Positions 30,902-37,735 of a stretch of 55,677 bases of DNA are shown piece after piece. The stretch spans positions 1 to 55,677 of the forward strand of contig DVDV01000351.1 of NCBI GenBank assembly GCA_015296075.1, given 5' to 3'. The notes under the pieces are model-generated. The model did not search any database. It had not been told where the DNA came from and saw only the letters and a list, made by a program, of their open reading frames with translations. Each line of letters starts with the position of its first letter. Positions within the stretch are counted from its first letter, which is position 1. The translations under genes and the position numbers were made by a program. This DNA comes from Leptolyngbyaceae cyanobacterium M33_DOE_097. Its GTDB lineage: Bacteria > Cyanobacteriota > Cyanobacteriia > Leptolyngbyales > Leptolyngbyaceae.

Positions 30902-31210
30902 ATGCCAATCGCTGTTGGGATGATTGAGACTAGAGGTTTCCCTGCTGTTGTGGAAGCTGCTGACGCAATGGTGAAAGCCGCTCGCGTTACTCTGGTTGGT
31001 TACGAAAAGATCGGTAGCGGTCGCGTCACCGTAATTGTGCGGGGTGATGTGTCGGAGGTTCAAGCTTCTGTTGCTGCGGGAATTGAATCTGCTAAGCGGG
31101 TCAATGGTGGTGAAGTTCTCTCGACTCACATCATTGCTCGTCCCCATGAGAACCTAGAATATGTTTTACCGATTCGCTACACCGAGGCTGTAGAGCAATT
31201 CCGTGGCTGA
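30902..31210 (+). CDS. ccmK2: Carboxysome shell protein CcmK2
   Basis: 102 aa, one BMC (Pfam00936) domain; hexamers tile the facets of the beta-carboxysome shell. The pore-region motif [19 protein letters not shown] is intact. The C-terminus ([11 protein letters not shown]) and first position in the operon match CcmK2 of other beta-cyanobacteria. AGGAGA precedes the ATG. It is nearly identical to the CcmK1 that follows, which has a longer tail. The 156-base spacer before ccmK1 contains a 12-base direct repeat. Confidence 0.95.
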
Positions 31211-31366: not shown

Positions 31367-31708
31367 ATGGCAATTGCAGTTGGAATGGTTGAAACTCTTG
31401 GGTTTCCCGCTGTGGTAGAAGCAGCTGACGCGATGGTGAAAGCTGCCCGTGTAACCCTGGTTGGTTACGAAAAGATTGGTAGTGGTCGCGTCACCGTGAT
31501 CGTGCGGGGTGATGTGTCTGAAGTACAAGCTTCTGTCGCTGCTGGAATTGAAAACGTTAAGCGTGTGAATGGTGGTCAAGTTCTCTCGACCCACATCATT
31601 GCTCGTCCTCACGAAAACCTGGAATACGTTCTGCCAATTCGCTACACCGAGGCAGTTGAGCCTTTCCGTGAAAGCGTGAGCGGCATCCGTCCAATTAGCC
31701 GCTCCTAG
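31367..31708 (+). CDS. ccmK1: Carboxysome shell protein CcmK1
   Basis: 113 aa BMC-domain protein. It differs from CcmK2 at few positions in the domain (for example [11 protein letters not shown] for [11 protein letters not shown]) but carries a C-terminal extension, [15 protein letters not shown], typical of CcmK1. The extended tail can influence hexamer stacking and facet assembly. GGAAGGGAG lies upstream of the ATG. It is followed by ccmL after 9 bases. Confidence 0.95.
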
Positions 31709-31717
31709 TAACCTCTG

Positions 31718-32017
31718 ATGCAAATTGCAAGGGTTCGAGGAACTGTTACCAGCACCCAAAAAGAAGACAGTCTGCGAGGGGTGAAGTTTCTGGTTTTGCA
31801 GTTGCTCAACGATGAAGGGCAACTGCTGCCAGAGTACGAGGTAGCAGCGGATAACGTTGGAGCTGGAGTTGACGAGTGGGTGCTGGTCAGCCGTGGTAGT
31901 GCCGCTCGTCAAGTCCAAGGTAGTGAACAGCGTCCCGTTGATGCGGCAGTTATCGCCATTATTGACACCGTTAGTGTCGATGGCCGACTGATGTATAGCA
32001 AGCGGGAGCAATGGTAG
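31718..32017 (+). CDS. ccmL: Carboxysome vertex protein CcmL
   Basis: 99 aa of the EutN/CcmL fold; pentamers cap the twelve vertices of the icosahedral shell. MQIARVRGTVTSTQKEDSL, LVLQLLN and the Val-Asp-x-Ala-Val-Ile-Ala-Ile-Ile-Asp motif (VDAAVIAIIDTV) are characteristic. It starts 9 bases after ccmK1 with no clear ribosome site, suggesting coupling. Length is normal. Confidence 0.96.
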   Translation: MQIARVRGTVTSTQKEDSLRGVKFLVLQLLNDEGQLLPEYEVAADNVGAGVDEWVLVSRGSAARQVQGSEQRPVDAAVIAIIDTVSVDGRLMYSKREQW

Positions 32018-32127: not shown

Positions 32128-34167
32128 ATGGCAGTTCGCATGCACGCGGCTCCACCAACGCCTTGGTCGAGAACGCTTGCTGAACCAAAAATCGATAAGT
32201 CGGCGTACATTCACGCTTTCTCGAATCTGATCGGCGACGTTCGGATTGGGGCTGGTGTGTTGATTGCTCCAGGTACCTCCATTCGCGCAGATGAGGGTTC
32301 TCCCTTTCATATTGGGGATGGCAGCAATATTCAGGATGGGGTTGTTATTCACGGTTTGGAGCAGGGGCGCGTTCGGGGAGATGATGGGGCTGACTACTCT
32401 GTGTGGGTCGGTAATGGTTCATCGATCGCCCATCTTTCGCTGATTCATGGTCCGGCTTATATCGGTGACAACTGCTTCATCGGGTTTCGGTCAACGATTT
32501 TCAATGCCCGAATCGGTGCCGGCAGTATTGTCATGATGCACGTATTAATTCAGGATGTGGAAATTCCGCCAGGGAAGTATGTTCCTTCGGGCGCAGTGAT
32601 TACTTCTCAACAGCAGGCCGATCAGTTGCCGGATGTAAGGGAGCGCGATCGCCAATTTGCCAGCCATTTGGTTGGCTTGCATGGGGCGTTGAGACCAGGG
32701 TATCGCGATTCTGACGATGCCGCTCGCCTTGCGCCACCTCGTGAAGAGCAAAATCTGTCCAGTCATTCCAGTCAGCAAAATATGAATACCTACGCACACA
32801 ATCAAGCAGCTAGCCTCGGTGCCGATGTCGTCAATCATGTGCGGCAATTGCTGGCTCAAGGCTATCGAATTGGCACCGAGCATGCCGATGAGCGACGCTT
32901 TCAAACTTCTTCATGGCGCAGTTGTGCGCCGATTCAAACGGCAAATGAAGGCTCAGTGTTAAGAGAGTTAGAGTCTTGTTTGTCAGAACATTCGGGTGAG
33001 TATGTTCGCCTGATTGGGATTGACCCCCGCGCGAAGCGGCGTGTTTTTGAAACAATTATTCAACGTCCTGATGGCAAGGTCGTTGCCCAGGCAGGTTCCA
33101 GTAATGGTCGGGCAAGCTATGCGTCTGCCAGTAAGTCCTACAGTTCTGCGGGTAGCAATGGCCATTCCGGTGGTGGTCTTTCAGGTGATGCGATCGCCTT
33201 TGTTCGCAACATGCTGGCTCAAGGGGCCCGCATTGGAACTGAACACGCCGATGCTCGTCACTTCCAGGTGAGTTCTTGGTCAAGCTGTTCTCCAATTCAA
33301 GCAAACCGTGAGTCAGATGTTGTTTCTGCTCTGCAAGGTTGTTTGGCTGAACATGGTGGTGAATATGTCCGCATGTTTGGAATTGACACACGAGCGAAGC
33401 GTCGTTTAGGCGAAATCATTATTCAACGCCCCAATGGCAAAGCTCCAGCAGGTGGTGGCGGTAGCTATCAGCCTAGCTCCAGCTCCAGTGCGTCTAGCCC
33501 TAGCTATGCGCCTAGCGGTGGTTATGCGGCGACAGCTCAGCTCAGCCCCGATTTAACTCAGCAAGTAAATCAGTTGGTTGCTCAAGGCTGCAAGATTGCG
33601 ATTGAGTTTGCTGATAAGCGTCGTTTCCAAACCAGCTCTTGGACAACCGCGACCGTTGTTGAAAGGGGTGGGTATGCCCAGGCGATCGCTCAAATCGAAG
33701 CGGTTCTAGCTGATCACGCGGATCATTACGTTCGAATTGTGGGTATCAACCCAACAGCCAAAACGCGGGTGGCTGAAGTGGTGGTTCACCGTCCAAATGG
33801 CAAGTCTGGTTCGGCACCCAGTTCTACAAGCAGCTATTCGGCTCCGGCTCCGTCACCCAGTTACTCTGCGCCTAAAGCTCCCAGCAATGGAGCCGGGGCA
33901 AACCTCAGTAATGTAGCGGGGCAAGTGCGTCAGCTGTTGATGCAAGGCTGCAAGATTGGTGTTGAGTTTGCCGATGAGCGTCGCTATAAAATTGGCTCTT
34001 GGACAACAGGGCTATCGATTGACTCAACCCATGAATCGGGTGTGATGTCTGCGATTCAGTCCTTCTTGAATGAACACTCAGGTCATTATGTGCGCCTTAT
34101 TGGTGTTGATCCAAAGGTGAAGCGGCGTGTGACTGAAGCCGTGATCCACAAGCCAAGCAAAGGATAA
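32128..34167 (+). CDS. ccmM: Carboxysome assembly protein CcmM (gamma-CA-like domain + four SSUL repeats)
   Basis: 679 aa from the ATG at 32128 (a TTG six bases earlier is dismissed). Residues 1-190 form a left-handed beta-helix of the gamma-carbonic anhydrase type; the zinc-ligand positions His75, His102 and His107 are kept. Four Rubisco-small-subunit-like modules follow at about 230-317, 350-437, 471-558 and 592-677, joined by Ser/Ala/Pro-rich linkers. They bind Rubisco and condense it. SSUL1 and SSUL2 have a Cys pair spaced 18 apart (266/284; 387/405), as in modules reported to be redox-sensitive; SSUL3 and SSUL4 lack it but share QGCKI. The gamma-CA domain has only one Cys (116). An in-frame ATG at 32782 could start a short M35-like form. 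Confidence 0.96.
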
Positions 34168-34239: not shown

Positions 34240-34878
34240 ATGTCTTTGCCGTTACTGCGATTGCAACCGATTAGCATCTCCCACTATCAAATCAGTGGTG
34301 ATGTGTCGATCGCAGATGGGGCCGCGATCGCGCCAGGGGTGTTGATTCAGGCGGAACCCAACAGTCGCATTGTGATCAAAAGTGGTGCCTGTATTGGTGT
34401 GGGGTCGATTCTCCATGCCTCCAACGGGGTGGTCGAAATTGGTGAAGGAGCCAATATCGGAGCTGAAGTGTTGCTAATTGGGCAAGTCAGAGTCGGCGAT
34501 CACGCCTGTATTGGTACAGCCAGCACTATTTTAAATACCTCAATCGAGAGTGGACAGGTAATTCCACCGGGTTCGTTGATTGGTGATTCAAGTCGTCAAA
34601 CGCAAGAGTTACAGGCAACCGATACGGTTGTGGTGGCCGAACCAGCCGTGGAGTCAACTTCTAATCACACAACGCCTGAAGTTTCACCCACATCACCCGT
34701 ACCACCCAGTGACCTGGCTAAAACAGAAGATAGTGCTACTTCTCCGACTGGGGTTAAGGTCTATGGGCAGATGTACGTCAACAATATGTTTGTCAAACTA
34801 TTTCCCAATCAAAAGCCTGCCTCCGAGTTTGATACTTCAGATAAGCTGGCTTCCTCCGATGACCCCTGGAATGACTAG
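34240..34878 (+). CDS. ccmN: Carboxysome adaptor protein CcmN
   Basis: 212 aa. An N-terminal hexapeptide-repeat beta-helix (about 15-118; VSIADGAAIAPGVLIQAEP, VVEIGEGANIGAEVLLIGQV) binds the CcmM gamma-CA-like domain. A Pro/Ser/Thr-rich linker leads to the encapsulation peptide VYGQMYVNNMFVKLFP (174-189), an amphipathic helix that recruits the CcmK shell. Here about 22 polar, acidic residues follow that helix (ending DDPWND), slightly more than I would expect. It is the last gene of the ccmK2-K1-L-M-N operon. Confidence 0.93.
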   Translation: MSLPLLRLQPISISHYQISGDVSIADGAAIAPGVLIQAEPNSRIVIKSGACIGVGSILHASNGVVEIGEGANIGAEVLLIGQVRVGDHACIGTASTILNTSIESGQVIPPGSLIGDSSRQTQELQATDTVVVAEPAVESTSNHTTPEVSPTSPVPPSDLAKTEDSATSPTGVKVYGQMYVNNMFVKLFPNQKPASEFDTSDKLASSDDPWND

Positions 34879-36889: not shown

Positions 36890-37735
36890 ATGAGCCGCCG
36901 CGAAGACTTTACCGACACCGCCTTAGGATTAGTCTCAGCCCAGAGCTTTCCAGCCATTGTGGGAATCGCCGACCACATGCTGAAATCGTCTGGGGTGACG
37001 CTAGTGGGTTATGAAAAGATTGGGAGTGGGCACTGCACGGCGATCGTTCGCGGTGGGGTAGCCGATGTACGTTTAGCTGTACAAGAAGGAGCCGAACGGG
37101 CGCAACAGTTTGGCCAAACCTTAGAAACCCTGGTCATCGCCCGACCCATGCCTAACTTAGAAGCTGTCTTGCCAATTGGTCATCGTCTGGCTCAACTCGC
37201 AACGGGTCGAGGTCACAGTAAACTGAGCAATATGGCTGTCGGTCTTCTGGAGACGCGGGGCTTTCCGGCAATGGTAGGTGCTTCTGATGCGATGCTAAAA
37301 GCCGCCGAGGTGGCGCTGGCTGGTTATGAAACCATTGGCTCAGGACTTTGTACGGCGATTATTCGAGGGACTGTCTCAAACGTGGCAATCGCTCTGGATG
37401 TTGGCATGTTAGAGGCCGAGCGGATTGGTGAGTTGCATGCGGTGATGCTAGTGCCCCGTCCCCTGGACGATCTTGATCAGACGCTACCATTGGCAAGTTG
37501 CTGGATCGAAGAAATGCAACCGCTGCGAATGCCGCTCAACATCAAGGAAACCGAAAAAGAGCAAGTGGCTTTGGCCGAAGCCGTTACCCAACCGCAAGAA
37601 CTGGCATTGCCTGCCCCCAGTGAGACACGGGCGGAGCCTCTACCCTTAGAAATGCCGACAGCCAGACCCGTCGAAGTCGAGATTGAACCGGATGAAACGG
37701 ATGATACTCCCAAGTTGCGTCGCCGCAAAAGCTAG
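36890..37735 (+). CDS. ccmO: Carboxysome shell protein CcmO (tandem BMC domains)
   Basis: 281 aa with two fused BMC domains: about 10-95 (SFPAIVGIADHMLKSSGVTL; KIGSGHCTAIVRGGV) and 113-197 (LETRGFPAMVGASDAMLKAA; TIGSGLCTAIIRGTV). Such proteins form pseudohexameric trimers in the shell, and CcmO is needed for carboxysome assembly. A long acidic, Pro-rich tail (200-275) ends in RRRKS. It is separated from ccmN by about 2 kb with an opposite-strand gene, so it has its own promoter. It is convergent with the Coq4-like gene, three bases apart. Confidence 0.94.
   Translation: MSRREDFTDTALGLVSAQSFPAIVGIADHMLKSSGVTLVGYEKIGSGHCTAIVRGGVADVRLAVQEGAERAQQFGQTLETLVIARPMPNLEAVLPIGHRLAQLATGRGHSKLSNMAVGLLETRGFPAMVGASDAMLKAAEVALAGYETIGSGLCTAIIRGTVSNVAIALDVGMLEAERIGELHAVMLVPRPLDDLDQTLPLASCWIEEMQPLRMPLNIKETEKEQVALAEAVTQPQELALPAPSETRAEPLPLEMPTARPVEVEIEPDETDDTPKLRRRKS

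Follow-up and report, generated by a model that had tools for sequence, protein, structure and literature searches.

We examined a 55,677-nucleotide stretch of contig DVDV01000351.1 from Leptolyngbyaceae cyanobacterium M33_DOE_097 (here, the window). An open reading frame list and a domain search of the window place ccmM inside a ccmK-L-M-N cluster, and the locus is a standard beta-carboxysome cluster. Two NDH-type membrane proteins are also encoded in the window, on the strand opposite to the cluster. The features are as follows, with TeCcmM denoting the Thermosynechococcus protein whose gamma-CA domain is PDB 3kwc.

30902..31210, + strand: shell protein, BMC domain (ccmK)
31367..31708, + strand: second shell protein, BMC domain (ccmK)
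31718..32017, + strand: vertex protein, EutN_CcmL (ccmL)
32128..34167, + strand: ccmM, 679 aa, stop included; open reading frame read from the ATG at 32128
32128..32748, + strand: gamma-CA-like domain, residues 1-207; gap-free alignment to 3kwc
32473..32475, + strand: C116, sole Cys of the gamma-CA domain
32524..32526, + strand: S133, Cys in TeCcmM (3kwc alignment)
32707..32709, + strand: D194, place of TeCcmM Cys194 (3kwc alignment)
32725..32727, + strand: R200, place of TeCcmM Cys200 (3kwc alignment)
32818..33081, + strand: SSUL1, residues 231-318, Cys pair C266/C284
33178..33444, + strand: SSUL2, residues 351-439, Cys pair C387/C405
33541..33807, + strand: SSUL3, residues 472-560, without the pair, C488 in QGCKI
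33904..34158, + strand: SSUL4, residues 593-677, without the pair, C608 in QGCKI
34240..34878, + strand: hexapeptide protein, presumptive ccmN from its position and C-terminal peptide
36890..37735, + strand: tandem BMC protein, two BMC stretches, presumptive ccmO

The mechanical list begins the ccmM reading frame six bases upstream of the ATG, at a TTG. Pfam recovered hexapeptide repeats and four RuBisCO_small stretches, and residues 1-207 match PDB 3kwc (E 1.6e-97), placing a gamma-CA-like left-handed beta-helix domain at the N terminus. The four SSUL modules fall within the range of three to five for beta-carboxysomal CcmM. The whole protein has seven Cys residues (116, 266, 284, 387, 405, 488 and 608). 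Met219 (32782) precedes SSUL1, and inspection by eye revealed no clear ribosome site for an internal short-form start. Among named relatives in the genome collection, L036, from an uncultured Leptolyngbyaceae, matches best (71% in the best segment).

The initial annotation had held that the gamma-CA domain keeps three His ligands with a single Cys and cannot form the activating disulfide of TeCcmM. Both points held up in the gap-free alignment to 3kwc. The ligands H75, H102 and H107 are all retained. Of the four Cys of the TeCcmM domain (116, 133, 194 and 200), the window domain has only C116, with Cys133, Cys194 and Cys200 replaced by Ser, Asp and Arg. With D194 and R200 occupying the places of Cys194 and Cys200, a TeCcmM-type disulfide cannot form. 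The nine active-site residues that we checked, at positions that we chose from what is known of gamma-CAs and from the 3kwc alignment, read RDENQDHHH and are identical to those of TeCcmM.

A search of the genome for ccaA, which the same annotation had suggested as a check, found the gene. This genome (99.93% complete) carries two beta-CA (Pro_CA) genes, one of which encodes a 292-aa protein with the C-terminal tail ...WLTPEQAERIYRGS, ending RIYRGS. Its best solved relative is PDB 5swc, which we take to be CcaA of Synechocystis; the match covers residues 9-224 and excludes the tail. The tail WLTPEQAERIYRGS is of a putative CcmM-binding kind, and a Q..RI tail was found in 52 of the 64 genomes whose best beta-CA matches were fetched. 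Passages of PMC8580825 describe the recruitment of CcaA in S. elongatus, where the C-terminal peptide of CcaA is bound by the gamma-CA domain of CcmM. According to a passage of PMC13249358, Thermosynechococcus is without CcaA.

We then compared the state of the Cys194/Cys200 pair with the presence of a CcaA-family beta-CA, called at a score above 150 bits to the CcaA of the window genome. Among 386 genomes searched, 203 had a match; 78 with weak or distant matches (e.g., G046 and G177) were left out, and the survey rests on the 125 whose CcmM was clear. Of these, 92 retained the pair and 33 had lost it. We found a CcaA-family beta-CA in 30 of the 92 pair-keepers and in 32 of the 33 pair-losers; the remaining loser, G231, has a 25-residue piece at a contig end that is 96% identical to the CcaA of a congener. 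With G231 counted as CcaA positive, the keepers divide into 62 without and 30 with CcaA and the losers into 33 with and none without, such that the pair is present in every one of the 62 genomes that have no CcaA. Counted by genome, among which there are related species, the association has a Fisher p of 7e-13 (n = 125), and it persists after collapse to genus-state classes (33/25/18/0; p 5e-6). Pair losses are spread over 12 of 28 families. A tree-based independent-pairs test had only three usable pairs (mean 1.6 in the expected direction, 0 against, 1.4 with no difference) and was underpowered (median p 0.5). Since 30 genomes keep both, CcaA allows the pair to be lost without making its loss obligatory. 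As a rule of thumb, loss of the gamma-CA Cys pair in this sample always comes with a CcaA-family gene.

The active site is intact (RDENQDHHH) in 91 of 92 keepers versus 6 of 33 losers. Those six are the window genome (G000), G052, G077, G205, G276 and G290, and membership of this small group makes the window CcmM a good test case for whether gamma-CA activity really depends on the disulfide. All stages occur within the window's own family: G283 keeps the pair and is without CcaA; G054 keeps the pair and has a CcaA (L246) that ends early, with the RIYRGS tail in no adjoining frame; the window CcmM has lost the pair with its active site intact; and G179 has one Cys left and altered His ligands.

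An association between pair loss and CcaA has already been published for smaller strain sets, to which larger counts are added here. Passages of PMC5472144 (12 alkaliphiles) and PMC9120777 (17 thermophiles), both comparing Cys and active-site regions, link a gamma-CA that looks active with a lack of ccaA, and part of the review PMC13249358 describes the domain as mostly inactive where CcaA is encoded.

Taken together, these observations make it very probable that the window encodes an ordinary CcmM of a filamentous cyanobacterium, with CcaA as the main CA, a gamma-CA domain that serves as trimer and dock, and a disulfide lost in the presence of CcaA. Carboxysomal CA activity would come mainly from the separate beta-CA CcaA, bearing the tail described above, and the gamma-CA domain would keep its trimer fold and its docking of CcaA. 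With CcaA present, the redox-activating disulfide would be unneeded and lost; we infer that this took place before the active-site residues decayed. Because ccaA is present in the genome, the missing disulfide needs no special mechanism. Weighing against this reading are the intact active site, the relatedness of the species together with the underpowered tree-based test, the 30 genomes that keep both CcaA and the pair, and three pair-losers of a single genus whose CcaA-family protein does not have the RIYRGS tail.

Because its active site is intact, the gamma-CA domain might still work, and one alternative has it as an active CA beside CcaA, independent of a C194-C200 disulfide. All nine checked residues, including the three His, are as in TeCcmM, and none has changed in the window, whereas S. 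elongatus has altered two (RDEIQEHHH). We nonetheless regard this alternative as unlikely. Altered active sites in 27 of the 33 pair-losers are what would be expected after loss of function, and the window domain has also lost the Cys at place 133, a residue found in 92 of 92 pair-keepers and 23 of 33 pair-losers but replaced by Ser here. A passage of PMC9120777, judging from primary structure, has ccaA-bearing Leptolyngbya-type strains relying on CcaA. AlphaFold2 models of the gamma-CA domains (mean pLDDT 72.7 and 72.3) place a helix in the tail (model residues 196-204) of the pair-keeping relative L037 and none in that of the window protein, a comparison that is weak because both tails have pLDDT below 50.

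Two side observations concern other arrangements of these components. The tailless CcaA-family beta-CAs of the three pair-losers are L256, L257 and L266, from G077, G052 and G205, respectively; in all three genomes the CcmM pair is lost and the active site kept. Separately, four of the seven genomes of one genus (G002, G292, G387 and G388) encode a second, smaller CcmM-like protein of about 305 aa (L283:4650-5567, - strand, and L284). This mini-CcmM combines a gamma-CA domain that has the Cys pair and an intact active site with one SSUL without a Cys pair. The main CcmM of G002 and G292 no longer has the pair, and its active site is altered; a division of labor between the two proteins is possible. 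Inspection by eye of the 10 kb around the mini-CcmM in G002 revealed no ccm genes.

The SSUL region was also examined. As the initial annotation had recognized, SSUL1 and SSUL2 carry 18-spaced Cys pairs (C266/C284 and C387/C405), and a single CcmM does contain two kinds of module. Its description of SSUL3 and SSUL4 was right as to the missing pair and the Cys in QGCKI; its statement that they had lost the pair goes further than the module tree, which is unrooted and fits a pair that was lost as well as one that was never there. Nor is a mixture of modules special. We collected 207 CcmM loci, which gave 199 distinct proteins; after four one-module proteins were left out (two fragments and two mini-CcmMs), 195 proteins with at least three modules remained, a set in which some species may count twice through near-identical proteins from two collections. 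The pair was present in 376 of 720 modules, and mixed modules are not unusual because 184 of the 195 proteins combine pair and other modules. In S. elongatus, too, disulfides occur in SSUL1 and SSUL2 only (passages of PMC8580825 and PMC13214033). Among 127 four-module proteins, the pair-pair-none-none order of the window, shared by its close relatives L036-L041, is joint commonest with none-none-pair-pair (23 each). Among the matches listed in a literature search, none was a survey of where along CcmM the SSUL Cys pairs lie.

Pair modules also share the companion residues G20 (360/376), H23 (344/376), P39 and H59 (370/376); G20, H23 and H59 vary in other modules. On an unrooted FastTree phylogeny of 442 modules, built from the surveyed genomes and L036-L041 only and with columns 17, 37 and 55 removed, the pair state requires 15 changes and module position 86. 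Fifty within-protein shuffles gave a mean of 134.8 changes for the pair state (lowest, 115), and the state is therefore inherited rather than toggled. The pair modules do not form a single clade, as the best split misplaces 115 of the 442 modules. At least one pair module is kept by all 195 proteins; in 2,000 shuffles that ignore relatedness, 13.6 proteins without any would be expected (lowest, 5). On this basis we tentatively suggest, as a possibility that we would not yet favor, that there are two old SSUL lineages, one redox-switchable and one redox-blind, and that no CcmM can do without at least one module of the switchable kind, in any position. If so, the redox switch would be essential to carboxysome building in beta-cyanobacteria generally. 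The counts do not establish a matching requirement for one or more redox-blind modules (11 of 195 all-pair proteins versus 18.6 expected, lowest 8, again in shuffles ignoring relatedness).

In the window CcmM, the four modules would tie Rubisco into a condensate, with SSUL1 and SSUL2 able to form a redox disulfide and SSUL3 and SSUL4 unable to do so; binding or linking by the latter two is probably independent of redox state. Arg residues R251, R252 and R298 mattered for homodemixing in S. elongatus (passages of PMC8580825). When these were mapped via L226 (presumptively the S. elongatus protein, whose Cys numbering it fits with an offset of one), the R251 and R298 places were Arg or Lys in all four window modules, and the R252 place was kept in three, being His in SSUL2. 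SSUL3 and SSUL4 look functional in this comparison, because positive charge is kept at the homodemixing places. According to passages of PMC8580825, Rubisco binding in S. elongatus is under redox control in the short form, M35, and the long form, M58, had essentially equal Rubisco affinity in both redox states. It follows that binding by the long form does not have to be gated, even by SSUL1 and SSUL2.

The CcmM of S. elongatus PCC 7942 (M58/M35) resembles that of the window in having a gamma-CA-like domain followed by SSULs, disulfides in SSUL1 and SSUL2 with none in the last module, and a CcaA alongside; it differs in having three SSULs rather than four. That of Synechocystis PCC 6803, like that of the window, has four SSULs of which two carry redox Cys pairs, but in the reverse order, its pairs lying in SSUL3 and SSUL4 (passages of PMC13214033).

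The Cys of QGCKI had been taken as the mark of a second kind of module. We reject it as a motif shared by SSUL3 and SSUL4, which are only 41% identical, because the residue varies in the nearest relatives: in the six nearest named ones, the SSUL3/SSUL4 site reads H/H, L/Y, C/H, Y/C, C/Y and Y/Y. The same variation makes it very improbable that C488 and C608 form a second redox device, such as a disulfide between modules or between protein copies. A Cys at this site (column 17) is indeed enriched in pairless modules (43/344 versus 6/376; p 2.5e-9, relatedness ignored), and 11 of the 195 proteins carry it at least twice. The enrichment, however, also fits a general relaxation of pairless modules at a site otherwise Tyr, where Y, H, F, L, A and S also occur. 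A sequencing or assembly artefact, for which we found no evidence, can be set aside with near certainty given that the frame stays open over 679 codons, that all four modules are intact and that L036-L041 have the pair-pair-none-none pattern too.

An SSUL module also occurs outside CcmM in this genome. The Rubisco activase on contig C182 (L002:1498-2892, - strand) has a C-terminal SSUL module in which the second Cys of the pair is present and the first is not.
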